From an uncultured Aquimarina sp. (lineage in GTDB: Bacteria > Bacteroidota > Bacteroidia > Flavobacteriales > Flavobacteriaceae): DNA of 64,000 bases. Shown here piece after piece: positions 35,432 through 64,000 of this stretch. Each line of letters starts with the position of its first letter. Position 1 is the first letter of the stretch. The stretch covers positions 62,001-126,000 of the forward strand of contig NZ_CANMED010000005.1 in NCBI RefSeq assembly GCF_947496855.1. Direction: 5' to 3'. A program made the position numbers and the translations under genes. The notes beneath the pieces were generated by a model. It had not been told where the DNA came from. It ran no database searches and saw only the letters and a list, made by a program, of their open reading frames with translations.

Positions 35432-35446
35432 AAGGTTCTGAAACTT

Positions 35447-36655: not shown

Positions 36656-36658
36656 TAA

Positions 36659-38206: not shown

Positions 38207-38228
38207 AATATATGCTTTAAATTATTGA

Positions 38229-41200: not shown

Positions 41201-41270
41201 ACCCCAACATTAGTAATAAAATTGGAATACATTTCTTTAATACTTTTAAATATGTAAACTTTTTATCCAT
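38229..41270 (-). CDS. susC: SusC-like TonB-dependent transporter
   Basis: 1013 residues. Signal peptide to LFAQ (about residue 29), then a carboxypeptidase-regulatory-like domain (ELTGTVTSIETNTPIPGVSV, about 30-115), TonB-box-like EEIVVVGYG, plug domain (about 115-230, LIVVDGF, IYGSRGSNGVVLVTTKKGK), and a 22-strand barrel ending at LGVKF. It imports glycan oligomers with energy from TonB. It precedes susD, GH88 and GH2, and follows the hybrid regulator in the same orientation. A TAnnTTTG-type box lies about 130 bases upstream. Confidence 0.96.
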   Translation of the reverse strand: MDKKFTYLKVLKKCIPILLLMLGSGLFAQIELTGTVTSIETNTPIPGVSVLIIGTSSGSVTDFDGKYTINVNTGDVVQFSYIGLITKNITISGQTTLNVSMEEDSEALEEIVVVGYGSQRKSDVTGSVSSVKSEELNAFPVLNAAQALQGRAAGVVVQSNNGGEPGAPINVKIRGNTSINASSAPLIVVDGFVGGVFPQANDIESIEILKDASATAIYGSRGSNGVVLVTTKKGKKGKLSVEVNTTYSIQNTANRLDLLNANEFAAYQQTINPGYVQGPANTDWQDLLYKSGSTANHQFSFSGGSDKINFYASATYFKQEGVILNSEFERISFLSNIDAQVTNKLKLGANLFGSRGNKDGVPTQSTGATVNGGGDDVVSLLFRFTPDLGIQNVNGLNTINSVGDNVDNPFAIATESIDETKTDNYRANLYANYDIFENLTFKTTFGFSTINGTQGTFSPSTLITTAGDGTGGRATITNSRSTSILSENYLTYKAEIGKGNLTLLAGYSYQKNATDRFSAGAEGFTSDSFSYHALQTGSTQLIPTSSFSEIEIQSQFGRLNFDYDDKYLLTATVRRDGSSNFAKNEKYAIFPSGAIGWKISNENFLKDSQTISNLKLRASYGVTGNQAIVAYGSLASFASVFTPINGQTVINVTPNQVANPDLKWESSYQTNLGLDLGLFSNKVSLSLDYYNIDTKDLIIADSSQPEYLGFLTAASLRNVGEINNKGFEITLNTRNISNENFSWTTDFNWSTNKNEFVSLLNGEDIFQDASPGYFNIDRTHILREGEAVGVFWGYQYRGVYQGGDLPEGTAIFEGGEAGDQLFTDLADEDGNLDGVITTDDQQIIGDPNPDFTIGITNTFTYKNIDLSIFFQGAYGGDVMNLTNVQLFNGDSNATTDVLNAWTPTNTNTDIPSAKLRGKQISSRFVEDGSYIRLKNIALGYSLPSEITEKLRMDTIRVSVSAQNLVTFTDYSGLDPEVNFLGGGGSGSQNTFNGFDFGNYPTVRSVNFSLGVKF

Positions 41271-41400
41271 GAGTGATTGATTTATGTTAAGTGCATGTCT
41301 GTATTTAATACAGATATATAATCAGAAGACAAAAAAATACAATGCACAACGAAAAAAGAAGCTGTAAAAAAATATATCTGTTTTGTTTCCAATTCATACT

Positions 41401-41408
41401 CAAACCTA
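41401..41408 (-). promoter_or_regulatory. Candidate -7 promoter box for susC operon
   Basis: CAAACCTA on the plus strand reads TAGGTTTG leftward, a full match to TAnnTTTG. A possible -33 TTTG (plus CAAA 41433-41436) lies 24 bases further upstream, slightly more than usual. The implied leader is about 120 bases. Confidence 0.45.
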
Positions 41409-41510
41409 CTTAAAACACTATATCTAAAAGTTCAAAAAAGGGTATACTTATGTACTAAACGCTGATTACTAATGGATAAAAAGAGATATTCTTATAAAAA
41501 CCCTCTTTTT

Positions 41511-47860: not shown

Positions 47861-48691
47861 ATGGATAATAAAGTAATTGTACTAACCGGTGGTGGCGGTG
47901 TTTTAGGTAAAACAATGGCATTGGCTCTAGCAAAAAAAGGCGCTAAACTCGCCATTTTAGATTTGAGAAAAGATGCTGCCGAAGAAGTAGTAAAAGAAAT
48001 TAAAATACGTGGAGGAGTCGCAATTGGTATTGCTGCAGATGTACTTAGTAAGGAATCCTTATTAAAAGCACGAACGGAAATCAACTCCAAACTAGGAAGC
48101 TGCGACATTCTAATCAATGGTGCGGGAGGTAATCACCCTAAAGGAACTACATCCAATACCCATTTGGTTTTAGAAGATCTGGAAAATAAACAAAATGACT
48201 TTCAGACTTTCTTTGATTTAGATTCAGAAGGGATTCAATTTGTTTTTAACCTTAATTTTATTGGTACACTATTACCTACTCAGGTTTTCGCTAAAGACAT
48301 GGTTGGAAAAGATGGTTGTTGTATTCTTAATATCTCTTCGATGAATGCTTTTACACCCTTAACAAAAATTCCAGCTTACAGTGGTGCAAAAGCAGCTATA
48401 TCAAACTTTACGCAATGGCTTGCTGTACATTTTGCAAAAGTAGGTATTAGAGTAAACGCATTAGCACCTGGTTTTTTTTTAACAGAGCAAAACAGATCTC
48501 TGTTAACGGATTCTGAAGGAAATCCAACACAAAGAGGTAAAACTATCATAGAACACACCCCAATGGGTAGATACGGCGAACCTGAAGATCTTATTGGAAC
48601 CACAGAATGGTTATGTGGAAATGGTTCCAAATTTGTAACAGGCATTGTGGTGCCAATCGATGGAGGTTTTAGTGCCTTTAGTGGTGTTTAA
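47861..48691 (+). CDS. uxuB: SDR-family D-mannonate oxidoreductase (fructuronate reductase)
   Basis: 276 residues. Short-chain dehydrogenase: NAD(P)-binding VLTGGGGVLGKTMALALAKK, DILINGAGGN, catalytic Ser in ILNISSM and the YxxxK as PAYSGAKAAIS. The C-terminal part (APGFFLTEQNRSLLTD, IEHTPMGRYGEPEDLIG) closely resembles the Bacillus-type UxuB/YjmF D-mannonate oxidoreductase, which reduces fructuronate to mannonate. It is the first gene of the catabolic operon and feeds UxuA directly downstream (9 bases). It substitutes for the unrelated long-chain E. coli UxuB. Confidence 0.85.
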   Translation: MDNKVIVLTGGGGVLGKTMALALAKKGAKLAILDLRKDAAEEVVKEIKIRGGVAIGIAADVLSKESLLKARTEINSKLGSCDILINGAGGNHPKGTTSNTHLVLEDLENKQNDFQTFFDLDSEGIQFVFNLNFIGTLLPTQVFAKDMVGKDGCCILNISSMNAFTPLTKIPAYSGAKAAISNFTQWLAVHFAKVGIRVNALAPGFFLTEQNRSLLTDSEGNPTQRGKTIIEHTPMGRYGEPEDLIGTTEWLCGNGSKFVTGIVVPIDGGFSAFSGV

Positions 48692-48700
48692 TATATACAT

Positions 48701-49885
48701 ATGAATTTAGAACAAACATGGCGATGGTATGGGCCCAATGATCCCGTCTCATTATCAGATATAAAACAAGCCGGAGCAAGGGGTATTGTATCCGCATTAC
48801 ATCATATTTCTAATGGAGAAGTTTGGACTATTGAAGAAATACTAAAGAGAAAAGATGTTATAGAAGAATCTGGACTCAATTGGTCGGTTGTAGAAAGCGT
48901 ACCCATTCATGAGAATATCAAAACCAGATCTGGAAAATATCATGAGTACATAGAAAATTATAAAACTACTATCAGGAACTTAAGTGTTTGTAAAATAAAT
49001 ATCGTTTGCTATAATTTCATGCCTGTTCTAGATTGGACAAGAACCAATTTAGAATATGAAATATATGATGGATCTACAGCATTGAGATTTGATGCAACTG
49101 AATTTGCTGTTTTTGATCTATTATTACTTAAAAGACCAAATGCAGAAAAAGAATATACGGATACCCAACTACAGGCAGCAAAAACTTTAGAAAAACAAAT
49201 GTCTGATGCTCGAAAGAAACTGCTAGTAAACAATATCATTGCAGGCCTACCTGGTGCAGAAGAAGGTTATTCCTTAAAGGATTTTAATACCATTTTAAAT
49301 ACTTATAAAAACATTGGACCTAACGAATTAAAAGAAAATCTCTATTTCTTTCTAAAAGAGATTATTCCGGTAGCGGAAGAAACAGGAGTGCTTATGTCTA
49401 TACATCCTGATGACCCACCATATCCAATTCTAGGTTTACCAAGAGTGGTAAGTACCCAACAAGACATCCTTGATTTATATCACGCTGTAGATTCTCCAAA
49501 CAATGGATTAACATTTTGTACAGGATCTTTTGGGCTCCGTCAAGATAATGACTTACCATCGATGGTAGAACGTCTTGGAAATCGGATACATTTCATCCAT
49601 TTAAGAAGTACTAAGAGAGATAAAGAAGGTAACTTTTATGAAGCTAATCATCTGGAAGGAGACGTAGATATGTATGAAGTAATGAAAGCTTTAATCAACG
49701 AACAGAACAAAAGACAAAGGGCTGGCAGGTCCGATCTGAATATTCCAATGCGACCAGATCATGGCCACAAAATGTTAGATGATCAACATAAAAAAACGAA
49801 TCCTGGTTACTCCGGTATCGGAAGACTAAGAGGATTAGCTGAGCTTAGGGGTTTAGAATTAGGAATTAGAAAATCAATACGATAA
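48701..49885 (+). CDS. uxuA: Mannonate dehydratase
   Basis: 394 residues, the size of E. coli UxuA. Dehydrates D-mannonate to 2-keto-3-deoxy-D-gluconate (KDG). Family landmarks: [20 protein letters not shown] at the N-terminus, [38 protein letters not shown], and [12 protein letters not shown], whose Cys, His and Asp bind the metal. It lies second in the operon after the mannonate oxidoreductase, 19 bases before kduI. Confidence 0.96.
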
Positions 49886-49904
49886 AGAAATAAAACATAG
49901 AATT

Positions 49905-50744
49905 ATGACTACTGCTTACGAATCCAGATATGCATCTCATCCTAAATCTGTTAAAGCTATGGACACCGCAGAACTTAGAGATGAGTTTTTGATAGAAAAC
50001 CTAATGCAATTAGGACAAATCAATCTCACTTATTCTCATTACGACAGATATATTGCAGGATCTGTAGTGCCGAAAGACACATTAAAACTAGAGCCTATTG
50101 ATCCTCTAAAAGCCCAGTATTTTTTGGAAAGAAGAGAACTTGGTATAATCAATGTCGGTGGAAAAGGAGAAGTTGTAGTAGATGGAACTTCTTATGAATT
50201 AAATTACAAAGAAGCGTTGTATGTAGGAAAAGGAAATAAAGAAGTTCTTTTTAAGAGTCAGAGTTCGTCTAATCCTGCTAAATTTTATATCAATTCTGCG
50301 CCAGCACACCATAGCTATCCAACCGTAAAAGTGACAAAAGAAAAAGCTAACAAAATAGAGTTAGGTTCTTTAGAAACGTCTAATCATAGAACAGTATTAC
50401 AATTGATTGTTGGTGGAATTGTAGAAACTTGCCAATTACAAATGGGAATGACTGAATTAAAAAAAGGTAGTGTTTGGAATACAATGCCTGCTCATTCTCA
50501 CGATAGACGAATGGAGGTTTATTTCTATTTTGAAGTACCAAATGATCAATCTGTTTGCCATTTTATGGGACAAACTGACGAGACTAGACATATCTGGATA
50601 CAAAATGAACAAGCAGTAATTTCTCCTCCATGGTCAATTCATTCTGGCTCAGGAACTTCTAACTATACTTTTATCTGGGGAATGGCAGGAGAGAATTTAG
50701 ATTATGGTGATATGGACAAATGTGAAATAACGGCTCTTAAATAA
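49905..50744 (+). CDS. kduI: 5-dehydro-4-deoxy-D-glucuronate isomerase
   Basis: 279 residues, normal for KduI, a cupin. Isomerises 5-keto-4-deoxyuronate, the rearranged product of GH88, to 2,5-diketo-3-deoxygluconate. Visible are [20 protein letters not shown], the zinc-site [15 protein letters not shown] (two His and Glu), and the C-terminal [20 protein letters not shown]. Its presence shows that the locus handles lyase-generated unsaturated uronates, not only saturated ones. Confidence 0.96.
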
Positions 50745-50752
50745 ATACATCT

Positions 50753-51547
50753 ATGTCATTATCTCTATTTGATTTAAAAGGTAAAAATGCTTTAATAACA
50801 GGATCAACTCACGGTTTAGGAATGGCCATGGCAAAAGGATTGGGACTTGCGGGAGCTACTATCATTGTAAATGGTAATTCTTCTCAAGAAAAAATCGATC
50901 TCGCCGTAGAAACCTATAATAACTTAGGGATCCATGCTAGAGGCTATAAATTCGACGTGACCAATGAACAAGAAGTAATACAAGCTGTACAGCAAATTGA
51001 AAATGAAATCGGAATAATCGATATATTAATCAATAATGCCGGAATAATAAAACGTGTTCCTCTAGAAGAAATGGAAGTAGTCGATTTCAAACAAGTGATT
51101 GATGTCGATCTAGTGAGCCCTTTTATAGTTTCCAAACATGTAGTAAAAGCAATGATTGAACGAAAATCCGGAAAGATTATTAATATCTGTTCTATGATGA
51201 GTGAATTGGGTCGCAATACGGTCGGTGCCTATGCTGCTGCTAAAGGAGGTTTGAAAATGCTTACTCAAAATATGGCAACAGAGTGGGCAAAGCACAATAT
51301 ACAAATCAATGGCATTGGCCCGGGATATTTCGCAACTGAGCAGACTGCCCCAATCCGAGTTGATGGACATCCTTTTAACGATTTTATCATTAATCGCACA
51401 CCTGCTGCAAAGTGGGGAGATCCCAATGAATTAGCCGGTACAGCCATATTTTTAGCTTCTAAAGCTAGTGATTTTGTAAACGGTCATATTCTATATGTCG
51501 ATGGAGGCATTCTAGCTACCATTGGTAAACCTGCAAATGAAACGTAA
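50753..51547 (+). CDS. kduD: 2-dehydro-3-deoxy-D-gluconate 5-dehydrogenase (KduD)
   Basis: 264 residues; an SDR with ALITGSTHGLGMAMAKGLGL, DILINNAGIIKRVPLEEM, and catalytic Ser in IINICSMMSELG with YAAAKGG. KduD reduces 2,5-diketo-3-deoxygluconate to KDG. Position just after kduI supports this specificity over the related gluconate 5-dehydrogenase. Its stop overlaps the ATG of the next gene by one base (TAATG). Confidence 0.92.
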   Translation: MSLSLFDLKGKNALITGSTHGLGMAMAKGLGLAGATIIVNGNSSQEKIDLAVETYNNLGIHARGYKFDVTNEQEVIQAVQQIENEIGIIDILINNAGIIKRVPLEEMEVVDFKQVIDVDLVSPFIVSKHVVKAMIERKSGKIINICSMMSELGRNTVGAYAAAKGGLKMLTQNMATEWAKHNIQINGIGPGYFATEQTAPIRVDGHPFNDFIINRTPAAKWGDPNELAGTAIFLASKASDFVNGHILYVDGGILATIGKPANET

Positions 51548-52791
51548 TGAAGCATCTATTTATTCTTATCACCGCATTTCTCTTGATTACTTCTAGCTGT
51601 AAAAAGGCCAAAAAGTATACTACAGAACCAAAACACATAAGTTTTAAGAATACGCTAGATATAAAACGTGTCGATGAAAATATTTCTATTCCAAGAGATA
51701 AAATAATATCCATACTAGATAGCATCCCAAAAAACAGAGTTCCCATGATGAAAGACTCATCAGGGAAAATAATTCCTTTTCAACTAGATGATTTAGAGAA
51801 AAATGGTATTTGGGATGAACTCAGTCTAACTCTTGACTTTAAACCAAACCAATTACTTGATTTAGAATTAACTACTATCGCTCCAGAAAGTATTCCTTCA
51901 TTCACTCCAAGAACGAATATTAGATTTGGAATTGGAACTAACAAAACGAATGTAAGAGAAGTTTTAGAACAAAAACGCATAGGTGATCCTAGAACTAATG
52001 ATAGTATCTTTTATCAAATGGAAGGTCCTGCTTGGGAGAACGACAAGGTTGGTTTTAGGTTCTATTTCGATCCACGCAATGGCATAGATATTTTCGGAAA
52101 AACTACCTCAGGACTAGTTCTTGACAGAGTTGGTCTAGGGGAGGGAAATTATCACGAATTAGATGATTGGGGAATGGATATTCTTAAGGTTGGTAATTCA
52201 TTAGGTGCAGGAGCATTAGCAATAAAAAAGAATGATACTTTAATTAGAATAACGGGAAAGGATCAAGCCGAATTCAAAGTCATCGCTGAAGGTCCTATAA
52301 GATCGATTTTTGAAATGACTTATGAAAACTCTAAGATTGGAGATCAACGCATAAATGTTATTCATAGAATCACTATTTGGAAAGGGCAATGGGGATATCA
52401 AAATGAAGTTTTTTTTAAAGGCATAACGGATCAAATGAAATTAGTAAGTGGTATTGTAAATTTGAAACCCAATAAATTATATTCAAAAATAGTAGAAAAC
52501 TACCATGCTTTAGAAACATATGGCCCGCAATCAGAGAATAATGACGCACTTGGAATGGCAATCATTGTACCAAAAGAAGATTTTATAGATAACGGCGAAG
52601 CTCCAAAGGAAAAAGCAGATATCGTTAAAACATATTACACAGTAATGAATGCTTCAAATAAAAGACCTACGGCTTTTTATTTCCTTTCAGGATGGGAACG
52701 ATCTCATCAACAGTTTAAAACTTATAACGGATTTGAAAAAATGATTATCAATACGATCGAAAGACTATCAAATCCAATATTGATTCAATAA
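51547..52791 (+). CDS. DUF4861 family lipoprotein
   Basis: 414 residues. Lipoprotein signal (ILITAFLLITSSC, Cys about residue 18). The body is beta-rich and matches the DUF4861 pattern as I recall it (PMMKDSSGKIIPFQLDDLEK, YQMEGPAWENDKVGFRFYFD, DIFGKTTSGLVLDRVG, YHELDDWGMDILKVGNSLG). Function is not established. It is frequently found in uronate and pectin loci. Here it is embedded between cytoplasmic enzymes kduD and kdgK with overlapping or two-base junctions, so it must matter for uronate use; a periplasmic step such as sugar epimerisation or ester removal is conceivable. Confidence 0.78.
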   Translation: MKHLFILITAFLLITSSCKKAKKYTTEPKHISFKNTLDIKRVDENISIPRDKIISILDSIPKNRVPMMKDSSGKIIPFQLDDLEKNGIWDELSLTLDFKPNQLLDLELTTIAPESIPSFTPRTNIRFGIGTNKTNVREVLEQKRIGDPRTNDSIFYQMEGPAWENDKVGFRFYFDPRNGIDIFGKTTSGLVLDRVGLGEGNYHELDDWGMDILKVGNSLGAGALAIKKNDTLIRITGKDQAEFKVIAEGPIRSIFEMTYENSKIGDQRINVIHRITIWKGQWGYQNEVFFKGITDQMKLVSGIVNLKPNKLYSKIVENYHALETYGPQSENNDALGMAIIVPKEDFIDNGEAPKEKADIVKTYYTVMNASNKRPTAFYFLSGWERSHQQFKTYNGFEKMIINTIERLSNPILIQ

Positions 52792-52792
52792 T

Positions 52793-53788
52793 ATGCATAA
52801 AAGAGTTGTTACTTTAGGCGAAGTTCTAATGCGTCTCACCACTACGTCTAATGATCGTTTCGAGCAATCGGATACCTATGCCGTGCATTTTGGTGGAGCA
52901 GAAGCCAATGTTGCCATCTCTTTAGCAAACTGGAATATTTCTACTGCTCATATTACGGCATTTCCAGATCATACCATAGGAAAGGCAGCCTTTAGTTATT
53001 TAAGAAAACATGGCGTAGATACTGATTATATAAAGTTAAGTGATGGAAGAATGGGCCTATATTTTCTAGAAAACGGAGTGATGCAACGATCTTCTAAAAT
53101 TATTTATGATCGTTTTGATTCTGTATTTTCAAAATTAGACCCAGCCCTTTTTAATTGGGATGAAATTTTAGAAGGAACGGACTGGTTTCACTGGACTGGA
53201 ATTACTCCTGCAATTTCAGCATCTGCAGCACAATTATGCTTGGACGCAGTCTCCTCAGCTCAAAAATTAGGAATTACAATAAGTGGTGACATCAACTATC
53301 GCAGGAATCTCTGGCAATATAGAAAATCGCCTTTAGAAATAATGCCTGAACTTATAAACAAGAGCAATGTCATTATAGGAGGGCTGACAGATTTCGAAAA
53401 TTGTTTAGGAATATCTGCTAAAAGCTACGAAGAAGGTTGTAAAAAAGTCCAGCAAAAATATCCTTCTGTACACACTTTATCCAATACACATCGAGAAATT
53501 ATATCTGCTACATATAATAAACTGTCTGCCATACTATGGAAAAATGAAAAACTCCAGTTGTCGAAGATATATGATATGGAAAATATAGTGGATCGAATCG
53601 GTGGTGGAGACGCTTTTATGGCTGGATTGATTTATGGACTATTGCATCAAGAAGATAAAGAAGCGCTTGAATTCGCAGTAGCTTCATCGGTGCTGAAACA
53701 CGGAATTCTTGGAGATTCGAATTTGGTTTCTGTAGAAGAAGTAAAACAATTAGTACAAGGCGATAATACTGGAAGGTTATTACGATAG
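52793..53788 (+). CDS. kdgK: 2-keto-3-deoxygluconate kinase
   Basis: 331 residues of the PfkB/ribokinase fold: GEVLMRLTTTSNDRFEQSDT at the start, FGGAEANVAISLANW, and the C-terminal signature DRIGGGDAFMAGLIYGLLHQ with the catalytic Asp. KdgK phosphorylates KDG to KDPG. The order uxuB-uxuA-kduI-kduD-(DUF4861)-kdgK-kdgA makes the assignment secure. One base separates it from the preceding stop, and zero from the aldolase. Confidence 0.93.
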   Translation: MHKRVVTLGEVLMRLTTTSNDRFEQSDTYAVHFGGAEANVAISLANWNISTAHITAFPDHTIGKAAFSYLRKHGVDTDYIKLSDGRMGLYFLENGVMQRSSKIIYDRFDSVFSKLDPALFNWDEILEGTDWFHWTGITPAISASAAQLCLDAVSSAQKLGITISGDINYRRNLWQYRKSPLEIMPELINKSNVIIGGLTDFENCLGISAKSYEEGCKKVQQKYPSVHTLSNTHREIISATYNKLSAILWKNEKLQLSKIYDMENIVDRIGGGDAFMAGLIYGLLHQEDKEALEFAVASSVLKHGILGDSNLVSVEEVKQLVQGDNTGRLLR

Positions 53789-54454
53789 ATGAAATACACA
53801 CACGAACATATAATTAAAGTTATGGAAGATACAGGATTGATTCCTGTATTTAATCACGTCGATCTTCGTATTACCAAAAAAGTATTGGACGCTTCTTATA
53901 AAGCAGGTATAAGAGTATTTGAATTCACTAATAGAAATGAAAAAGCATTAACTGTATTTACTGAATTACATGAATACGCATCTAAATATGATGATCTTGT
54001 TTTGGGTATCGGTACTATTTTTACGAAAACTCAAGCACGAGAATTTCTAGATATTGGTGCAGACTTTATAGTTTCTCCTGCCTTGATTCATGAAGTTGCT
54101 GATTTTTGCAACATACAAGAAATCCTATGGATTCCCGGATGCGCTACCCTCACAGAAGTATATACTGCTCATCGACTAGGAACAAAGCTTATTAAAGCCT
54201 TTCCTGGTAATGTTTTGGGACCTGACTTTATAAAAGCCGTTAAAACAGTTTTACCTTATATAAAAATAATGCCAACAGGAGGTGTACAACCTACATTAGA
54301 AAACCTGAAACTTTGGTTTCATTCTGGCGTTAGTTGTGTTGGAATGGGATCGCAACTTTTTAATAAAGAAGATATTAAGAGTGAAAATTTTCTAAAACTA
54401 ACTAGAGACATCAAAGAAACGCTACAGCATATTCAAAAAGTGAAAAATATATAA
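53789..54454 (+). CDS. kdgA: 2-dehydro-3-deoxy-phosphogluconate (KDPG) aldolase
   Basis: 221 residues; class I aldolase that splits KDPG to pyruvate and glyceraldehyde-3-phosphate, the last step of the pathway. The Schiff-base Lys is in TKLIKAFPGNVLGP; the catalytic Glu in RVFEFTNRNEKAL; phosphate-binding MPTGGVQPTLENL. It starts directly after kdgK. Bifunctional KDPG/KHG activity is typical of the family. Confidence 0.94.
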   Translation: MKYTHEHIIKVMEDTGLIPVFNHVDLRITKKVLDASYKAGIRVFEFTNRNEKALTVFTELHEYASKYDDLVLGIGTIFTKTQAREFLDIGADFIVSPALIHEVADFCNIQEILWIPGCATLTEVYTAHRLGTKLIKAFPGNVLGPDFIKAVKTVLPYIKIMPTGGVQPTLENLKLWFHSGVSCVGMGSQLFNKEDIKSENFLKLTRDIKETLQHIQKVKNI

Positions 54455-54458
54455 ACCC

Positions 54459-55439
54459 ATGATGATCAAGAAACTATTATTACTTTTTATAGGATTATTT
54501 CTATTAGGATCTTGTTCTACAGAAAAGAAAACTAAAATACTCAGACTTGCACATACTTTGGACACCAAACACCCCGTGCACAAGGCGATGAAAATTTTAG
54601 GAGAAAAGCTTGAAAAAAAATCGAATGGCACTCTAAAAGTTAAATTGTATCCAAGTGGTCAATTGGGAGCAGAGCGTGAATGCTTGGAATTATTACAAAT
54701 AGGAAGTCTTGACATCACTAAAGTTTCTGCAGCGGTATTAGAAAATTTTATAACTGAATATAAAGTTTTCAGTATCCCTTATTTATTTAGAGACAGGGAA
54801 CACGCGTTTCAAGTTTTTGATGGTACAATCGGAGGTGACATGCTTACTAAGGGAGACAAATATCGATTAAGAGGACTCACTTTTTATGATGCAGGAAGCC
54901 GAAGTTTTTATACTAAAGAAAAACCAATAAGTACTCCCGAAGATCTTAAAGGTCTTAAAATTAGAGTTCAAAAAAGCAATATGGCGGTAGCTATGGTTAA
55001 CTCTTTAGGTGGTTCCCCTACTCCTATTTCATGGGGAGAATTATATACCGCATTGCAACAAGGTGTTGTGGATGGTGCAGAAAACAATCTCCCTAGCTTT
55101 TATACTTCCAAGCATTATGAAATATGTAAATATTTTAGCTTGGATCAGCACACTGCTGTCCCCGATGTTCTACTAATTGGTTTAGATAGCTGGGAACGGT
55201 TATCTAAACAAGAACAGGCTTGGTTAAAAGAAGCGGCCAAAGAATCTACTATTGAGCAACGTAGATTATGGGCAGATTCTGAAAAAGAGTCTTTGGATGC
55301 TATAACTGCATCAGGAGTTGAAATTATAACACCTGATAAAGTTTCGTTTGAAAAACAAACAGAAAGCATTAAAACTATGTTTCGGGATCAACCTGAAATG
55401 TTATCTCTGATTAAAAATATCAAAAACACTAATCAATGA
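54459..55439 (+). CDS. dctP: TRAP transporter substrate-binding protein (DctP family)
   Basis: 326 residues. Lipoprotein signal (LLLLFIGLFLLGSC, Cys about residue 20) anchors it in the periplasm. The DctP fold has GSRSFYTKEKPISTPEDLKG, then KIRVQKSNMAVAMVNSLGGS, whose Arg binds the carboxylate of the ligand, and WGELYTALQQGVVDGAENNL. Position after a full uronate pathway indicates a uronate ligand. It overlaps the small permease gene by 4 bases (ATGA). Confidence 0.92.
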   Translation: MMIKKLLLLFIGLFLLGSCSTEKKTKILRLAHTLDTKHPVHKAMKILGEKLEKKSNGTLKVKLYPSGQLGAERECLELLQIGSLDITKVSAAVLENFITEYKVFSIPYLFRDREHAFQVFDGTIGGDMLTKGDKYRLRGLTFYDAGSRSFYTKEKPISTPEDLKGLKIRVQKSNMAVAMVNSLGGSPTPISWGELYTALQQGVVDGAENNLPSFYTSKHYEICKYFSLDQHTAVPDVLLIGLDSWERLSKQEQAWLKEAAKESTIEQRRLWADSEKESLDAITASGVEIITPDKVSFEKQTESIKTMFRDQPEMLSLIKNIKNTNQ

Positions 55440-55897
55440 GAAAAGTAATTGATATATTTTTAGAAAAGGCTCTGATTCTGATATTCTCTATAATGCTGTT
55501 TAGTGTAATATGGCAGGTGTTTTCGAGATTTTTATTGAAATCTCCCAGTACAATTACAGACGAAATCTCTAGCTTTTCTCTGATATGGTTAGGTCTTCTG
55601 GGAGCAGCATATGCAACAGGAAAACGCTTACATCTTGCTATAGATTTAATACCCAGCCATATCGTAGCAAAAAAACAACAACTATATGATGGAATCGTTC
55701 ACGGAGCAGTATTTATTTTTGGATTGTTGGTTATGGTAATTGGTGGCGCAAGACTTTGCTGGCTTACATTCGTATTTCAGCAAAAATCAGCTACGCTAGA
55801 GATCCCTTTAGGATTTATTTATTTGGTAATACCTATCAGTGGATTATTAGTTTGTTACTACTCTATGGAAATTCTACTTCGAAAAAAACGATTTTAA
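55436..55897 (+). CDS. dctQ: TRAP transporter small permease (DctQ)
   Basis: 153 residues with four membrane helices (ALILIFSIMLFSVIWQVFSR, SSFSLIWLGLLGAAYATG, GAVFIFGLLVMVIGGARLCW, LGFIYLVIPISGLLVCYY). The central SLIWLGLLGAA motif is diagnostic. It pairs with the large permease 10 bases downstream. TRAP systems are sodium-driven, fitting a marine cell. Confidence 0.92.
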   Translation: MRKVIDIFLEKALILIFSIMLFSVIWQVFSRFLLKSPSTITDEISSFSLIWLGLLGAAYATGKRLHLAIDLIPSHIVAKKQQLYDGIVHGAVFIFGLLVMVIGGARLCWLTFVFQQKSATLEIPLGFIYLVIPISGLLVCYYSMEILLRKKRF

Positions 55898-55907
55898 AAT
55901 ATATTTT

Positions 55908-57203
55908 ATGAATTATACTGAAGTTTTGATCCTGACCCTTAGTTTTCTGGTATTACTTTCTATACGCGTTCCTGTAGCCTATGCTATTGGGCTTTCTGGC
56001 TTGTTTACGCTTATGGTGGCTATGCCATTCATGCCTTCAGTAACGACATTAGCACAACGTATGGCAACATCATTAGATAGTTTTACACTTTCCGCCATTC
56101 CTTTTTTTATTCTAGCCGGCCAGATTATGAATAAAGGAGGTATCGCTGTAAGGCTAATAAATTTTGCAAAAGCTATCGTGGGACCTCTTCCTGGAGGTTT
56201 GGCTTTTGTAAACATATTTGCTTGTATGCTTTTTGGTGCTATATCTGGATCTGCAGTTGCTGCAGCCTCAGCAATTGGAGGGTTTATGAATCCGATGATG
56301 GAAAAAGAAGGATATGATAAACCTTTTAGTGCCGCTGTGAATATTACGAGTTCTACTACAGGCTTATTGATTCCTCCGAGTAACGTATTGATTATATACT
56401 CTCTTGCCAGTGGTGGCGTTTCTATTGCAGCTTTATTTGTAGCAGGATATGTACCTGGATTACTTATTGGTCTTGCTCTAATGCTAGTTGCAGGTGTTTA
56501 TTCAGTAATCAAAAAGTATCCTACGGAAAAGCTGGTGAGCTTTAGAGAATTTTTCAAAAGATTTTTAGATGCATTACCTAGCTTATTGTTGTTAGTTGTA
56601 GTTATTGGAGGAATCGTTGCTGGAATTTTTACAGCTACAGAAGCTTCTGCTATTGCCGTGATTTACACTTTTGTATTAGCCTTGGCTTATAAAGAGATTT
56701 CTTTTAAAAGTATTGCATCCATACTTCTGGAAACTATAAAAACCTCATCAATTGTATTATTATTGATTGCTACCTCTATCGCAATGTCTTGGGTAATGTC
56801 CTATGAAAATATTCCACAGGAAATCAGTAATGCGTTACTTTCTGTTAGTGATAATCCAATAATAATCTTGATTCTTATAAATCTGATTTTACTATTTGTT
56901 GGTGTTTTTATGGATATGACTCCTGCAATATTAATTTTTACCCCTATATTTTTACCTATAGTTTCTGACTTAGGTATGAATCCAATTCACTTTGGTATTG
57001 TTATGATATTAAATCTTTGTATTGGATTGTGCACCCCTCCAGTAGGTTCTGTGCTTTTTGTGGGGTGTAGTGTTGCCGAATTAAGTATTCAAAAAGTAAT
57101 TAGACCTTTAATGCCTTTGTTTTTGATTATGATTCTGGTCCTAGTTTTAATTACTTATATCCCAGCACTAAGTCTATGGTTACCAAGGATGTTTGATTTG
57201 TAA
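55908..57203 (+). CDS. dctM: TRAP transporter large permease (DctM)
   Basis: 431 residues, about 12 helices. DctM signatures: RVPVAYAIGLSGL, the DSFTLSAIPFFILAGQIMNK segment, PGGLAFVNIFACMLFGAISG, SSTTGLLIPPSNVLIIYSL and NLCIGLCTPPVGSVLFVG. It completes a uronate TRAP importer. It is the last gene of the operon, with a strong hairpin following. Confidence 0.94.
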   Translation: MNYTEVLILTLSFLVLLSIRVPVAYAIGLSGLFTLMVAMPFMPSVTTLAQRMATSLDSFTLSAIPFFILAGQIMNKGGIAVRLINFAKAIVGPLPGGLAFVNIFACMLFGAISGSAVAAASAIGGFMNPMMEKEGYDKPFSAAVNITSSTTGLLIPPSNVLIIYSLASGGVSIAALFVAGYVPGLLIGLALMLVAGVYSVIKKYPTEKLVSFREFFKRFLDALPSLLLLVVVIGGIVAGIFTATEASAIAVIYTFVLALAYKEISFKSIASILLETIKTSSIVLLLIATSIAMSWVMSYENIPQEISNALLSVSDNPIIILILINLILLFVGVFMDMTPAILIFTPIFLPIVSDLGMNPIHFGIVMILNLCIGLCTPPVGSVLFVGCSVAELSIQKVIRPLMPLFLIMILVLVLITYIPALSLWLPRMFDL

Positions 57204-57305: not shown

Positions 57306-60300
57306 TTAATTAGTTTTTACAACCTTATATATCATAGGATTCATTCGATGATTCTCTATATCGATAATTCGTACCATATAAATTCCCTTAGACAACTGAC
57401 TGAAATCAATTTCATTTTCCGTTTCATCTAAAGATTTACTTATTTTTTCGGCACCTAGAATATCATAAACCTTAATGAGTTTGTTGGAAATGTTTCCAGA
57501 TATAAACAACGTATTTTGGACAGGATTAGGGTAAAGCACAATAGGATCTTGATTATTATCCCTATTTAGATTCTCTTTTCCTATCACCTCAAATACCCAA
57601 TGCTGATTTTGATTTGCATCGTCACTAGCCCATAAATATGCTGATTGATTATTTTCGCCTCCATTATTTCCATCTATTGAAAACGTATTTGCGTTACGTT
57701 TTTCAAGACGATACATATTGTTAGCTATGCGTACTTTTAGCCATTGTTGGTTCTGATTAGTAGCATTACAATCCCAAAGTTTAAGATTTTGACCATTTAC
57801 ACCAGAGGCTCCACCATCCATGCAATACGTAGTATTTACTTTTTGATACGAATAATACCCATTACCACGGTCTATTTCTATCCATTGCTGATTGACATTG
57901 TTAGGGTTTGCCTGCCATAGTTTAACATTCTGATCGCGTGCTCCACTGCCTCCACCATCTAAGGCAAAATTCGTAGCATTACGTTTACGTATATGAACAA
58001 TTGGATTGCCATCATTATTGTTATTACTAACTATTTCTATTGTTTTTGTTACCGTCGTAGTTATGCCATCATTATCGGTAGCAATAGCTTTTAATACATA
58101 ATTTCCGGCTACAAGATTCAATAATCCAGCATCATTTTGACCAGGGTTTGAAGTACCCCATTCATATGGAGTTGCATTTTCTTGTCTTATCAATAGATCA
58201 TTAATGTATAGTTTTATATTAGAAACAGCTCCACTATTAACAGCAACTACAACACCCAAATCATCACCTTCTTCCAATTGTGTATCCGTAGGACTAGTAA
58301 ATACAATTTCTGGTGTATTATCACAAGGAGCATCTGATGCATTCGGGCCATGAATATAATCAATAAAAGTATGCCTTGATGCTGATGCATCCGGTGGAAA
58401 ATCTAATCGAATTTTAGTAATTGTTTTTCCCATCCAAGTATTGAGGCTACTCATATCAAAGATAAGTTCTTCATACACATTAGTAGCTTGCGGATTTACT
58501 GTTACGGAGCGAGCTGCTGCAAAGCCAGGTTGATCTGTAGTAGTCCAAAATAGCTGAAAAACACCAGTTGCTTCAGACTTAGCTCTAATCCTTAATTGTG
58601 GTACTTGGTTACCTTGAAATTTTAGCCCATTTCTCACAATATGAGGATCATTAGAGTTATCTGCTCTTATTAACCAATATTCATCACTGCTTGTATTTTC
58701 AGCAGCTGTATTAAATCGTTGAAAACTTTCCGAGGTTTTATTAAATCCAAAGTTTAAATCAGAAGCATTATTTGGATTACCACAGGTATCCGTTTCCACA
58801 ATATCTGGTCTTCCATCTCCGTCACTATCATTAGAATTAGCTCCACCAAGATCATTGGTCGTACAAGGAAGAGCAGCCGGCTGAAAACTTCCGTTATTAT
58901 CCCAATTTAAAGTAACATTTACTCTAGTGTCACCTTCAGCAGCTCTGAATTTAACATATACATCTCCATTGCTGGCTATAAAATACCCATTATTGGTAGC
59001 ATTTTCTACTGCTACTCTAGAATTTAATCGCGGAGGTCCATTCACTCTAAAATTCCCAAGCTTTCCTAAACCTTTAAAACATGCAAACCCTAGATCTCCT
59101 GCGTCACCTCTATTCCAAATAAGCAGTATACTTTTATTTGCAGGAGCCTTATCAAAATAATAGGTGTACTGAAAATCTTCGTTTACGATCATAGGAAATT
59201 TATAGGTTCCTGACTCTGATGAACCTGACTCATAAAAACAAACATCATCAGTACCTGGTTTAGAACGAACAATAGACATACGGACCCCACTTTTATTTAT
59301 TTTAGCCATCCATAGGGATGCAAAGTAATAATCAGATCGAGCTGCATTTCTCCAAGAAGGATGTCTATATTCATGTCCATCCCTAAGAAACGCGACGTCT
59401 CTAATTAGTGTACCTGGTTTTCCTAACATTGTTCCATCATAATCTTTAAAAAATTGACCAACTTTTCTGGTGCGGGTAGCAGCTGTGTTGGGCAAAGGGA
59501 AAAATCTAAATGGGAAAGGCTCAGAAAATCCTTTAGTGGTTCCTCTAAAGCTAGGATTGAAATTCTCTGTAGCGCCTCCACCAGTAATTTGTTTGATCAT
59601 TTCAGCATTTGATCGATTCCATCCTTCAAAATGACAATCGATATGTCTTCCTGGTCCATCATAGAATCTAAAGAATTCTCGTGTCCCACTAAAAACACCC
59701 AGATCCGTATCCACATTAAAAAGACTATTTTCTATAGTTAGGTCACCAGCAAGCATCGTAACCGTTTTATTGTCACTAAAGGCGCAATTAAAGAAAACTG
59801 TATTTTTGTTCTGTCCATTTACTCCCAAACCGGAATAAATTGCTTGATCATTTCCATAGAACAAACCATTTTTAATTAGTTGTCGAGTACCTATATCCCA
59901 ACCGAAATTTGCTTTTATAGAATGGTCATCGTTCAATTGATCAAAAACATCAAAACCAGTCATACTGGTATGAGCAACAAATCCGTCAAACCTTCCTAAC
60001 TTATCTTTCCAAGGAAGTGGATTGCCTTTATAATAATCCAATTCACCTGTTGCAAATAATGGCCCATTTGCAGGAAAGGCAAACCAAAATCCAGTTCCTT
60101 CCGTTCCTGCAGCGATATTATTCTCAAAGTAATTATTCGGATTGGTGATCCAGTATGATGAAGGTGTTCTGTTTTGCGGAGCATTAAATTGATTATCAGA
60201 AGGTGTTAGTTGCTCTCCAGGTTTTGGTCTCCTTGTTACAAACACTACATTGTTTTTGAGTGTATTAAAACGTTCTCCTCCATCTTCAAAAAATATCCCA

Positions 60301-61484
60301 TGTCCAATATGATCATAGGCAAATACTCCATCTACGGTTACATAGTCTGTACCGTGAATGGTTACTGCACGATTAAAAGATTTATGTACACTACTATTTC
60401 TTAAATAACTGCCTTGTGCTTTATCTTCGTTTAAATGCCAATGGAATGGATATCTTCCTAAAACTCCTTTTTGACCCATCTTGTAGAGTTCTACATGTTC
60501 TGCGTGAGCAGTAGAATTCTTCATTAGCATAATATGACCACCAAATCCAGTTTGTTCATTATTCCCATTCATTTTACCCTGAATCTTGATATAATGCGAC
60601 AACAAACCTACTTCTCCATAAATATCTACATTCCAAGTTTTTCCATCTCTGGCTCTCGTATATGTTTTAGATCCACCGATATGTTTAAATTTAAGAGGAG
60701 ATGTGAGTGTAAGAGTTTTTCTATCACCGCTAATAGCCGTTATCTCTCCTTCGTCTACATTGTTCCAAGCTTTAGATTGACTACTGGCTAAACCTGTAGC
60801 AGTCAATGCGATTTTATCGCCTACCTCCCAATCAACAGCCTCTTTTAAGGTAATTTGCGTAGCACCGATATTGGCAGTAGTGGCGATGTTTGTCCAACTC
60901 ATTCTTTTTTTACCGTGTAGCTCTAATCGACCTCCGCCCATTACCATTATAGCTTTATAAGAGGCAGGTGCATTGTTTATTTTATTACCTGTAAGTGTTA
61001 TTTGACAACTAATCCCGTTATTATTTTGAGTGGCATAGTACGGCTGGGCTTCAGTACCTATTTCTAGATAACCGCCATTGGCTACCATAATACTTTGTGT
61101 TTCTAGGTCGATCCACGCTCCTTCCGATTGCCAATTTACAGCACTCAATTTTCCTTGTACTGTGATACTTTTTGCTCTGCATGTACCAACCATAATTAGA
61201 TTAGTTCCTTGTGGGACTATAACATCATCGTTTGCTGTTGGTTTTATGCCGTTAGGCCATGTAGATGGATCTGTCCATAATCCAGAACTAATTGGTCTAA
61301 TCGTAGCCAAACTATTAGGAGGTACACAATCATATGAGGAAGTGACTTTGGGAGGTGGAACTTTGTTATTTGCAAAGAGAGTACCAATACAAAAAGTAAA
61401 AAATATAAGGACCACTGTAGTTGCGAAAGCGTTTCGTTTTGCTAAGCACTTCAGTATGGATATTGGGATTGTTAGTTTTTTCAT
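57306..61484 (-). CDS. Secreted G8-domain/beta-helix protein resembling CEMIP/TMEM2, with Ig, ricin-B lectin and T9SS domains
   Basis: 1392 residues. Signal peptide (about 20-39). The G8 domain runs from about 65 to 195 (LWTDPSTWPNGIKPTANDDV, MGGGRLELHGKKR). A parallel beta-helix (about 310-600) has the segment conserved in animal CEMIP and TMEM2, GRYPFHWHLNEDKAQGS (343 onward), SVHKSFNRAVTIHGTDYV and HIGHGIFFEDGGERF. Then come a TSP3-like Ca motif (NDSDGDGRPDI, 884), a CBM-like beta region (905-1050), an Ig-like domain (1058-1152), ricin-B QxW repeats (1160-1300: NNVNQQW, NQNQQW, NQNQHW) and a T9SS tail (1315-1392). CEMIP and TMEM2 degrade hyaluronan. Activity here is unproven. The leftward gene borders the uronate operon. 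Confidence 0.85.
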   Translation of the reverse strand: MKKLTIPISILKCLAKRNAFATTVVLIFFTFCIGTLFANNKVPPPKVTSSYDCVPPNSLATIRPISSGLWTDPSTWPNGIKPTANDDVIVPQGTNLIMVGTCRAKSITVQGKLSAVNWQSEGAWIDLETQSIMVANGGYLEIGTEAQPYYATQNNNGISCQITLTGNKINNAPASYKAIMVMGGGRLELHGKKRMSWTNIATTANIGATQITLKEAVDWEVGDKIALTATGLASSQSKAWNNVDEGEITAISGDRKTLTLTSPLKFKHIGGSKTYTRARDGKTWNVDIYGEVGLLSHYIKIQGKMNGNNEQTGFGGHIMLMKNSTAHAEHVELYKMGQKGVLGRYPFHWHLNEDKAQGSYLRNSSVHKSFNRAVTIHGTDYVTVDGVFAYDHIGHGIFFEDGGERFNTLKNNVVFVTRRPKPGEQLTPSDNQFNAPQNRTPSSYWITNPNNYFENNIAAGTEGTGFWFAFPANGPLFATGELDYYKGNPLPWKDKLGRFDGFVAHTSMTGFDVFDQLNDDHSIKANFGWDIGTRQLIKNGLFYGNDQAIYSGLGVNGQNKNTVFFNCAFSDNKTVTMLAGDLTIENSLFNVDTDLGVFSGTREFFRFYDGPGRHIDCHFEGWNRSNAEMIKQITGGGATENFNPSFRGTTKGFSEPFPFRFFPLPNTAATRTRKVGQFFKDYDGTMLGKPGTLIRDVAFLRDGHEYRHPSWRNAARSDYYFASLWMAKINKSGVRMSIVRSKPGTDDVCFYESGSSESGTYKFPMIVNEDFQYTYYFDKAPANKSILLIWNRGDAGDLGFACFKGLGKLGNFRVNGPPRLNSRVAVENATNNGYFIASNGDVYVKFRAAEGDTRVNVTLNWDNNGSFQPAALPCTTNDLGGANSNDSDGDGRPDIVETDTCGNPNNASDLNFGFNKTSESFQRFNTAAENTSSDEYWLIRADNSNDPHIVRNGLKFQGNQVPQLRIRAKSEATGVFQLFWTTTDQPGFAAARSVTVNPQATNVYEELIFDMSSLNTWMGKTITKIRLDFPPDASASRHTFIDYIHGPNASDAPCDNTPEIVFTSPTDTQLEEGDDLGVVVAVNSGAVSNIKLYINDLLIRQENATPYEWGTSNPGQNDAGLLNLVAGNYVLKAIATDNDGITTTVTKTIEIVSNNNNDGNPIVHIRKRNATNFALDGGGSGARDQNVKLWQANPNNVNQQWIEIDRGNGYYSYQKVNTTYCMDGGASGVNGQNLKLWDCNATNQNQQWLKVRIANNMYRLEKRNANTFSIDGNNGGENNQSAYLWASDDANQNQHWVFEVIGKENLNRDNNQDPIVLYPNPVQNTLFISGNISNKLIKVYDILGAEKISKSLDETENEIDFSQLSKGIYMVRIIDIENHRMNPMIYKVVKTN

Positions 61485-62247: not shown

Positions 62248-64000
62248 TTATTTTTTAACAAACAATAATGATTCTTTAAACCTAACTGATTTTACTAATA
62301 AGAAATAAGAGCCTGAAGGTAATTCTGAAACCTCCAAAACTTCCGTTTCATTCTTTGTACTTATCTCTTTTATTAAGCGTCCATCCAGACTTACTATTTG
62401 AAGCGTTTTTAATTCAGATGACATACCTGACACAGTAAATGAAGAAGATAAAATCGGATTCGGAAATGCTTTGATCTGTACCAAATCGTTTTCTGGTCTT
62501 TCACGATTACAATTCGGCGCTGTCGGAGAATTGCTAAAGTAAATAGTAGCATCTTTTGTTTTAGAAACTAAGACCATATTTTCTCCATCTCTTGCTACCC
62601 AATACGATCCATCTAATCCCTCAAAACCAGTATTATTTAAAGTAACCTCTGGTTGAGCATTCTGTAACTGAAAAGTCATTGTATCTTTAAAATCTACATA
62701 CCAGTCTGGAGATCCATTATTAGTGTTTATAGCAAATTGATACAGACCATTACTATCTGGCACCCAATTAATCGTAAATTTTCTGAAGTTTCCTAATTTA
62801 GGTCCGTTATCCCCTAACACATGTACGTTACTATAAGTGATTTTATCCATAGGGCTTAGACCACTATTCATTGGCGCTCCAAAGGAACATGTATCTCCGC
62901 CACCTGAATCTGTTCCTCTTACTGTTAGTGTAAATGTTGCTTGATTGGTTGCTCCATCATTATCCGTAGCAATCGCTTTAAATGTATAAGAACCAGTACC
63001 CAACCCATTTATTTCTTGAGGGTTTGGAGAGGTATCATGACCCCATTCGTATGGAGCATTAACTTCTTGGCGCACAAGGTCATTATCTATATACAACTTT
63101 ACATTAGCTACAGTTCCATCGGAATCAGATGCATTCACAACTGCAGTAAGATCATATCCTTCATCAACCGTAATATTACCCAATGGTAATGCAAAAGATA
63201 CATTTGGTTTTTGATTATTTGAAGTACCAGTCACTGTTACTGTTATCGACTTACTTGATTTAGCACCATCATTATCAGTTGCTTCAGCTTTGATTGTATG
63301 CTGTCCGACTGGTAATCCTAAAAGCTCATTTGCATTATTCCCTTGTCCCCAAGTGTAGGGAGCATTGACCTCTTGACGAATAAAATCGCCGTCTACATAT
63401 AATTTTACATTACTAATAGAACCATCATTATCAGATGCATTTACAGTAACTTCGAGTTCATCATAACCTTCGGGCAAACTAATATCTCCTGATGGTGAAG
63501 CAAAAGAAATGTTTGGTTTTTGATTGGATCCTCCTGTACCAATTGAAGAAGGACATTGACTCTCAGAAGACTCGGAAACACACCAATCAGCAAATCGTAC
63601 CTGCTCATCATTTAATCCACTCGTTTTTCCTCTATAAACACCCCATTTAGGTCTATTATAATCTGCTCCACTTCTCCATAAATCTATATTAGAATTAGAA
63701 TAAGAAAAAACAGTTTGTCCATTAGACACTTTTTTCAGCACCACATTGAGTGTTCCATTATCCCCATGTTTTATTTTCACATACCCTTCGATCCATTCTC
63801 CTTTAAATCTAGATAGTGGTTCTTGTTTTAGATCAACATAAACAGAATTCGGATTTTTTCTATTATGTACCAACTCAAATTTATCTTTTTGTGCTGATAA
63901 AGTTAGTATTGGTGGCTTATCATTACTTCCTCCTTTAGCCTTTAATTGAAAGAAGTGACAAAATCTATTACTAGCTTTATAATTACTTGCTAAACGAAAC
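62248..64000 (-). CDS. Multidomain secreted protein: polysaccharide-lyase-like N-terminus, two Ig-like domains, T9SS tail; cut by window edge
   Basis: The frame stays open to the right edge (about 583 codons seen); the TTG at 63873 is internal, not a start. The first visible region ([60 protein letters not shown]) resembles the heparin-lyase-I/glucuronan-lyase jelly-roll family (PF14099-type). Two Ig-like repeats follow (both with [25 protein letters not shown] or [20 protein letters not shown]), then an unassigned beta domain ([20 protein letters not shown] to [13 protein letters not shown]) and a T9SS sorting domain ([13 protein letters not shown] to SLLFVKK). If the lyase call holds, it would generate the unsaturated uronate ends that GH88 and KduI/KduD use. 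Confidence is limited by the missing N-terminus. Confidence 0.68.

Follow-up and report, generated by a model that had tools for sequence, protein, structure and literature searches.

A bacterial CEMIP/TMEM2-core protein with a type IX secretion tail beside an array of secreted lyases in Aquimarina

The window analysed here, a 64,000-nucleotide stretch of the genome of an uncultured Aquimarina species (window positions are those of contig C5 minus 62000), carries on its reverse strand a gene for a 1,392-amino-acid protein that joins the core of the vertebrate proteins CEMIP and TMEM2 to a sorting tail of the type IX secretion system (T9SS). This gene (57306..61484, −; hereafter the G8 gene), recognized by its open reading frame (ORF), Pfam matches and homology to TMEM2, is intact, starts with ATG and has exactly the coordinates given in the original prediction. 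The three motifs quoted in that prediction are likewise found in the translation (GRYPFHWHLNEDKAQGS at residues 343–359, AVTIHGTDYV at 373–382 and GHGIFFEDGGERF at 394–406).

The protein begins with a probable signal peptide, judged by eye from the translation (about residues 1–38; 61371..61484, −), followed by a G8 domain (residues 75–200; 60885..61262, −; Pfam E = 2.7e-20, 73 bits against a cut-off of 22.9) and the CEMIP_beta-hel domain PF24606 (residues 313–509; 59958..60548, −; E = 1.7e-62, 211.3 bits against a cut-off of 27.3). Profile alignment to TMEM2 adds a domain-X-like part with approximate boundaries (about residues 660–860; 58905..59507, −) that includes D681-x-D683-G684. Further towards the C terminus lie a ricin-type beta-trefoil lectin (residues 1159–1296; 57597..58010, −), matched by two overlapping ricin-B models (E of about 5e-10) and by the PDB entry for ThreeFoil (3pg0; E = 6e-4), and the T9SS sorting domain Por_Secre_tail (residues 1317–1377; 57354..57536, −; Pfam E = 1.2e-12; TIGR04183, 47.5 bits against a cut-off of 23). 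G8, CEMIP_beta-hel, ricin-B and Por_Secre_tail all exceed their curated Pfam cut-offs. The fusion to lectin, immunoglobulin (Ig)-like and T9SS domains that had been proposed is therefore borne out for the first and the last, whereas the Ig-like part is a sub-threshold Big_7 match (residues 1058–1114; 58143..58313, −; E = 0.0034, 18.4 bits, below the cut-off of 24.1). The Pfam scan of the protein reported no polysaccharide lyase (PL)-family domain, and a promoter and terminator scan of the region yielded no more than shuffled sequence did.

What follows the core differs among relatives. A pattern-based scan reduced 487 stretches to 78 distinct loci, 62 of which were usable for a tally of C-terminal modules; 56 of these and the window protein were scanned, and six loci (L070, L080, L081, L101, L107 and L108) were omitted for size or shortness. 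Among the 57 proteins, T9SS tails occur in 32, Big_7 in 14, the carbohydrate-binding modules (CBMs) CBM96 and CBM6 in 9 and 8, respectively, and ricin-B in 3. The nearest orthologue, from A. aggregata (88% identity over 753 core columns), has CBM6 and CBM96 at the place of the ricin-B domain of the window protein. Relatives of the protein carry exchangeable carbohydrate-binding modules behind a constant core, an arrangement typical of secreted polysaccharide-degrading enzymes.

Because Pfam, profile, Foldseek and VIA-align searches all point to TMEM2, we assign the window protein to the CEMIP/TMEM2 core family (PF24606 with PF10162), in agreement with the resemblance first suggested from its G8 and beta-helix segments. 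A single-sequence search of the PDB had the TMEM2 ectodomain as its best hit (8c6i; E = 2e-35). Two alignments were assembled, A1 from the window protein and 14 of the 31 loci of the genus, and profile A2 from 39 sequences (the window protein and 38 of the 78 loci). The family profile matches 8c6i with E = 2.1e-121 in two blocks, one placing the G8 domain (profile positions 21–135) on chain positions 47–166 and the other placing the helix and domain X (141–792) on chain positions 336–1064. The profile alignment contains no bacterial counterpart to chain positions 167–335 (about TMEM2 249–417; the GG or lectin-like domain 1), and it stops at position 1064, leaving the second, C-terminal lectin-like domain of TMEM2 unmatched.

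The comparison of a structural model with TMEM2, suggested as a check on the original prediction, gives the same answer. An AlphaFold2 model of residues 60–920 (mean pLDDT 90.9, pTM 0.89) has 8c6i as its top Foldseek match (E = 2.7e-37, TM-score 0.70 by query length; runner-up, E = 1.3e-11) and as its best match in VIA-align (Z = 34.0, root-mean-square deviation 3.4 Å, 747 residues aligned, 24% identity). Next in VIA-align are AlgG (Z = 20.8) and AlgE4 (Z = 20.3), with 315–326 residues aligned; polygalacturonases (Z of about 17.5–17.9) and PL6 (Z = 17.2) are further matches. A family missing from these fold lists was not counted as excluded. By VIA-align and profile, the core that aligns with TMEM2 covers about residues 65–874 (58863..61292, −; model residues 6–815, to which 59 is added for the protein) and consists of the G8 domain, the parallel beta-helix and domain X; both lectin-like domains (1 and 2) are missing.

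The window protein does not have the vertebrate-type CEMIP/TMEM2 architecture. The G8 turns, parallel beta-helix, domain X and a set of His, Arg, Glu, Asn and Trp residues align with TMEM2, whereas the GG domain, which holds R265, D273 and D286 of TMEM2 and R187 of CEMIP, is missing, the core is followed by ricin-B and a T9SS tail instead of a second lectin domain, and the genomic context is different. Compared by fold and not by catalytic motif, the AlgG and AlgE4 epimerases and PL6 lyases share with the window protein a right-handed parallel beta-helix and have uronate substrates (Z = 17–21), but their identity is 12–13% and the match spans the helix only. Fibrocystin and PKHD1L1 also contain a G8 domain. 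For CEMIP, the likeness is taken from its TMEM2-like domain structure and not from a direct comparison, and in TMEM2 the G8 domain sits inside the beta-helix (both in excerpts of PMC10206443).

The helix residues are conserved among the bacterial relatives. In an alignment of 78 sequences (the window protein and 77 of the 78 loci), Y345, P346, H348, N371, R372, H377, E400, E404, N407, N412, W445, N451, N456 and W467 are invariant in all 77 sequences that have a letter there. Near-invariant positions are H317 and R344 (74/77 each), W349, H350, H395 and D430 (76/77 each) and H505 (77/78), and in domain X D681 is found in 78/78 and G684 in 77/78. The locus left out because of its broken frame (L061, from the metagenome-assembled genome (MAG) Flavobacterium sp. 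RU_4_13) has a G8 gene split over several ORFs, either by a frameshift in a low-coverage contig or as a pseudogene. The conserved bacterial set is identical in TMEM2 except at N371 (Ser) and W349 (Phe), the match at D430 depending on an alignment with a nearby gap; P441, invariant among the bacteria, also differs in TMEM2. Nine His, Arg and Glu positions of the helix are at least 96% conserved in bacteria and identical in TMEM2 by profile alignment.

From this conservation and the identity with TMEM2 we propose residues 317–412 (60249..60536, −) as a putative active-site stretch, with H317, R344, H348, H350, R372, H377, H395, E400, E404, N407 and N412 as candidate residues. Their TMEM2 equivalents are H519, R546, H550, H552, R580, H585, H603, E608, E612, N615 and N620 (8c6i chain position plus 82, as 23 tag residues precede residue 106; PMC10206443). 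By the strand list of the model, the conserved residues lie in or beside strands of successive helix turns and probably cluster. In TMEM2 the central cleft, the usual site of beta-helix enzymes, is described as blocked by loops 627–662 and 733–756 (PMC10206443). Compared with the bacterial profile, the first of these loops holds two insertions (8 and 9 residues) and a 4-residue deletion, and an 18-residue insertion overlaps with the second; the cleft-blocking loops therefore look shorter in the bacteria. A catalytic site may lie in this cleft.

The excerpts of the vertebrate literature considered here place the known mutations elsewhere. R265C, D273N and D286N of TMEM2 and R187 of CEMIP map to lectin-like (GG) domain 1 (PMC10206443), mouse TMEM2 H248 and A303 are also assigned to the GG domain (PMC10276149), and R265 is judged unlikely to act in catalysis (PMC10206443); none of these excerpts reports a mutation in the beta-helix set. 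The published loss-of-activity residues thus concern a separable domain of the sugar-binding type. Taken literally, the residues essential in TMEM2/CEMIP, whose loss the original prediction would have counted against itself, are absent from the window protein together with the GG domain; the beta-helix set is retained.

The closest genomic associate of the G8 gene is not the uronate operon on one side but a same-strand array of genes for T9SS-tailed proteins, several of them lyases, on the other; most of this array lies outside the 64-kb window. Its first gene upstream of G8 (62248..64000, −, running off the window edge; 742 amino acids in the genome) encodes a PF14099 Polysacc_lyase domain (E = 1.3e-8, 35.4 bits against a cut-off of 29.9), Big_7 and a T9SS tail; we take the PF14099 family to include glucuronan and heparin lyases. 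On the same strand there follow a DUF5060/Collagen_bind_2 protein, an ulvan lyase homologue (residues 27–492 match solved short ulvan lyases, E = 1.1e-156), a 711-amino-acid Big_7/T9SS protein, two PL14 proteins (E = 7e-31 and 1e-34), a protein with glycoside hydrolase (GH) family 5 and beta-helix domains and a PorP/SprF gene. Of the six array genes nearest to G8 on its upstream side, four encode lyase domains; all seven array proteins have Big_7 and a T9SS tail, and the gaps within the array are 43–213 bp. The ulvan lyase and PL14 proteins resemble the G8 protein in tail, Big_7 modules and common locus but differ in their catalytic domains by Pfam and PDB match. One domain, common to two array proteins (L121:251-2476 and L121:6695-9409; C5:124-134 kb), matches the solved 'unknown domain UKD' of bifunctional CelAly (9kvn; E of about 1e-46 and 1e-49), and at the far end of the array, beside PorP/SprF, a 2,391-amino-acid protein has 13 DUF285 stretches and a CHU_C tail (L122:11381-18556; C5 about 145-153 kb).

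On the other side, the uronate-use genes noted beside G8 are real and include UxuA, KduI, a kinase, an aldolase, DctP, UxaC, GH88 and GH2. A tripartite ATP-independent periplasmic (TRAP) transporter, DctP-DctQ-DctM (54459..57203, +; Pfam), follows genes for uronate catabolism (47861..54454, +; Pfam/NCBIfam) that encode D-mannonate oxidoreductase (a short-chain dehydrogenase/reductase, SDR), UxuA, KduI (447.9 bits against an NCBIfam cut-off of 250), a KduD-like SDR, DUF4861, a PfkB kinase and 2-keto-3-deoxy-6-phosphogluconate (KDPG) aldolase. The KduD-like SDR passes the threshold of PRK07097 gluconate 5-dehydrogenase but does not reach the one set for kduD. The DUF4861 protein (51547–52791) is retained in the sampled relatives and has a homologue with 24% identity in an Algibacter MAG. 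Further away are the glucuronate isomerase UxaC (31533..32942, +; E = 6e-205), a polysaccharide utilization locus (PUL) with GH2, GH88, SusD, SusC and a hybrid two-component regulator (33014..45617, −; Pfam), and a beta-helix protein (45721..47382, −) that distantly matches the model for hyaluronic acid endo-lyases of the BT3328 family (NF058554; 76.8 bits, a small fraction of the 1100-bit cut-off) and found no match in PDB searches. The operon ends at 57203 on the forward strand and converges with the G8 gene, whose near edge is at 57306 on the reverse strand; the G8 gene therefore adjoins the uronate operon without being part of the same transcription unit. The SusCD genes are more than 10 kb from G8, beyond the uronate and TRAP genes.

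Among the Aquimarina loci, the content of the array differs between genomes and its position beside G8 is kept. With N-terminal domains as queries, ulvan lyase homologues were found beside G8 in L033, L036 and L037 and PL14 homologues in L037 (Pfam PL14, E = 1.4e-34), L038, L041, L045 and L047; PF14099-type genes occur in L035 and L045 and BT3328-like genes in L033 and L035, and the flank of L032 ends with its contig about 1 kb upstream of G8. At the level of genomes, strong PL14 matches lie 5.2–15.3 kb from G8, measured between matched domains, in 10 of the 13 genomes with a G8 orthologue (G000, G007, G014, G025, G029, G034, G046, G047, G050 and G065); in G004, G015 and G026 PL14 is on contigs other than that of G8, and PL14 is also present in genomes without a strong G8 match. 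Of the 66 genus genomes, seven have the ulvan-lyase domain, six of them near G8 with the nearest copy at 2.2–10.1 kb. In one of these six (G047) the copy closest to G8 shows just 29% identity, and a copy with 53% identity is 15.6 kb from G8; the seventh genome (G023), 55% complete, gave no match to G8.

The uronate operon is kept in part of the genus. KduI orthologues (at least 91% identity) were found in 9 of the 66 genomes, each 9.0–12.0 kb from a G8 gene (9/9), although in G015, G034 and G047 the nearer G8 copy is a paralogue and the orthologue is about 5.5 kb further. The order GH88-SusD-SusC-HTCS-uxuB-uxuA-kduI is kept in three of four sampled genomes, and in the fourth up to SusC at the contig end; the BT3328-like gene is absent from G025. 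Operon-linked and unlinked G8 orthologues are interspersed in the tree, suggesting that the operon has been lost or gained more than once and that G8 is independent of it. With this tree, and with four of the 13 orthologue-group genomes lacking the operon nearby, the case for the operon as main partner is weakened. The predicted linkage is therefore real in part of the genus, where a genome survey of the kind first suggested finds kduI near G8 in nine orthologue-group genomes, and near the G8 gene of an Algibacter MAG; across the 78 loci (flanks of up to 10 kb per side, some ended by the contig), uronate or TRAP genes flank seven. In some Aquimarina a second G8 subfamily (RYPWHWH motif) stands between the orthologue and the TRAP genes. 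Tandem G8/CEMIP paralogues recur (L035:15386-19864, L037:15377-20047, L069, L072, L080, L087, L097 and L108).

Beyond the genus, the 78 loci fall into what we take to be at least seven phyla, with Bacteroidota, Myxococcota, Verrucomicrobiota, Planctomycetota, Gemmatimonadota, Meiothermus, Hahella and others represented. PF24606 is present in 24 of 66 genus genomes (22 with a match above 150 bits) against 5 of 395 genomes drawn from the order and 5 of 296 from the phylum, the own genome being counted each time; the family is therefore patchy and concentrated in Aquimarina. One of 14 control genomes, Deinobacterium chartae, also has a match, so Pfam already reaches bacteria, and the idea of a new family does not stand in the strict sense. 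The own genome encodes a second, divergent CEMIP_beta-hel protein (28.3 bits, barely above the cut-off; C2:414613-417642, −; L126:2613-5642), which bears CBM6 and a T9SS tail and lies close to other T9SS-tailed beta-helix proteins, one of them with CBM6, and about 10–15 kb from a SusC/SusD/sulfatase PUL. Saprospiraceae MAGs (L080, L081 and L097) encode very long G8/CEMIP proteins of about 2,400–2,760 amino acids, with further copies adjoining in L080 and L097.

Several loci outside the genus sit among carbohydrate-active genes. A divergent G8 protein in the Algibacter MAG (L092) lies near uxuB-uxuA-kduI-kduD and distant homologues of DUF4861, uxaC and DctP-DctQ in another arrangement; its flank yielded neither the kinase nor the aldolase of the uronate operon. 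Three tandem G8/CEMIP genes occur in Algibacter lectus beside sulfatase, GH43 and GH78 genes, and two tandem ones in Flavicella sediminum beside sulfatases, GH3, GH43 and GH78; Marinoscillum furvescens carries two genes on one contig with GH78 genes in between, and Algibacter pacificus one gene amid four sulfatases, GH78, GH106 and DUF5722. Ulvan loci contain rhamnosidases, sulfatases and GH43. Algibacter is among the genera that yielded ulvan-degrading isolates (excerpt of PMC9182395). Sulfatases occur in 11 of the 78 loci, including 7 of the 11 with verrucomicrobial titles. We claim no sulfatase enrichment near G8: all five genomes examined for this are rich in sulfatases (31, 126, 63, 67 and 125 matches, two of these figures being lower bounds) and were chosen because their locus had one.

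We propose, at a probability of roughly 0.58, that the window protein is a T9SS-exported CEMIP-core enzyme that depolymerises a glucuronate polysaccharide at the cell surface together with the secreted lyases encoded on the same strand. The protein would be exported by the T9SS to the surface, where its core would cut a glucuronate-containing polysaccharide, perhaps ulvan-like or glucuronan-like, alongside the PF14099 protein, the ulvan lyase and the two PL14 proteins. The conserved His, Arg and Glu residues on successive helix turns (H317, R344, H348/H350, R372, H377, H395, E400 and E404) would form the site, and cleavage would be at the uronate O-4 bond, with beta-elimination more probable than hydrolysis. 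Unsaturated and saturated uronates would then be consumed by the GH88/GH2 PUL and the route through KduI, the KduD-like enzyme, kinase and aldolase. A lyase is favoured because lyases adjoin G8 and because KduI is required only for unsaturated uronates; ulvan lyases cut at the O-4 of glucuronic acid (GlcA). Hyaluronan, one of the substrates named in the original prediction, is not indicated by the context: the only hints are distant BT3328-model matches (in A. litoralis an array gene at 34.9 bits), and we rejected it as an evident substrate. The gene context points to ulvan-like or glucuronan-like polymers and does not indicate a proven hyaluronidase.

A number of observations weigh against this proposal. 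We know of no tested bacterial member of the CEMIP-core family, the helix fold fits hydrolases, epimerases and an adhesin as well (Foldseek and VIA-align), and a gap of 763 bp separates G8 from the array. Ulvan use normally needs a sulfatase; the G8 contig has none, the eight matches in the genome being elsewhere (five at C2:361-398 kb), which leaves room for a non-sulfated polymer such as glucuronan. None of the searched array domains was found in the 9.8 kb upstream of G8 in RZ0 (L034). Only 6 of the 13 orthologue-group genomes have the ulvan-lyase domain (7 are without it), 4 of the 13 have a G8 gene without an adjoining KduI orthologue, and conservation of the neighbourhood in one genus partly reflects shared descent. 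Only 2 of 14 individually searched genomes have an ulvan-lyase domain, neither beside G8 (Algibacter pacificus, about 300 kb away; Flavicella, on another contig), and the genomes of Algibacter lectus and Marinoscillum gave no match. Outside Bacteroidota and Verrucomicrobiota (Planctomycetota, Myxococcota, Gemmatimonadota and others), clustering of flank ORFs, with part of the clusters and flanks annotated, gave no recurring carbohydrate-active neighbour. CEMIP-expressing cells are reported to degrade hyaluronan only and not chondroitin, dermatan or heparan sulfates (excerpt of PMC6888145), and the activity of TMEM2 itself is disputed.

The strongest alternative, although an unlikely one, is that the core is a glycoside hydrolase acting on uronate-linked polymers of the same kind through acid-base hydrolysis. 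CEMIP action has been termed endo-beta-N-acetylglucosaminidase-dependent (PMC6888145; PMC10276149), polygalacturonases are among the fold matches noted above, E400 and E404 are invariant, and the operon also handles saturated uronates (UxaC and UxuA). The four lyase domains among the first six array genes, and the presence of a KduI that only unsaturated uronates call for, speak instead for elimination. In excerpts of a 2026 review, the mechanism of CEMIP is itself called incompletely defined (PMC13113925).

Somewhat less probable again is a non-catalytic surface beta-helix that binds the polysaccharide and presents it to the lyases. The lectin of the window protein would suit such a role, the pneumococcal surface adhesin PfbA is a weak Foldseek match, two groups found human TMEM2 to be without hyaluronidase activity (PMC10206443; PMC10276149), and the excerpts of the crystal-structure paper state that no active site could be assigned (PMC10206443). 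Another study reports TMEM2 hyaluronidase activity as positive (PMC10474455), however, mouse TMEM2 and human CEMIP degrade hyaluronan (PMC10276149), and the presence of H377, R372, E400, E404, N407 and N412 in 77 of 77 sequences from at least seven phyla, and in TMEM2, exceeds what a scaffold would appear to need. A uronate C5-epimerase that converts GlcA to iduronic acid (IdoA) in the polymer and so enables lyase cutting is very improbable: the mannuronan C5-epimerases AlgG and AlgE4 are the best fold matches after TMEM2 and ulvan contains IdoA, but their lead over tailspikes and lyases is a weak one of about 1 to 4 Z units at 13% identity, and CEMIP and mouse TMEM2 are reported to cleave chains.

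A broader proposal, which we regard as tentative and rather doubtful, is that bacterial CEMIP cores make up a so far undescribed family of polysaccharide lyases that cleave ulvan- or glucuronan-type polymers at the uronate O-4, and that CEMIP and TMEM2 are the same machine with lectin domains added, their active site being the helix set H519–E612 and not the GG domain.

Among the matches listed in a search of open-licence papers, we found no study of a bacterial G8/CEMIP protein; a paper on a bacterivorous flagellate names the domain in a table only (excerpt of PMC7852580). New here is a bacterial CEMIP core without lectin-like domains in an array of uronate lyases; the core family itself was already known. 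The finding bears on whether TMEM2 is an enzyme and on where CEMIP and TMEM2 cut hyaluronan. Sugar binding is set apart from catalysis in bacterial homologues that lack the GG domain, keep the helix residues and have enzymes of known substrate class as neighbours, and such proteins can be tested directly by ordinary expression in bacteria. If they prove active, bacterial CEMIP cores would represent a new family of enzymes with which marine bacteria degrade polysaccharides.

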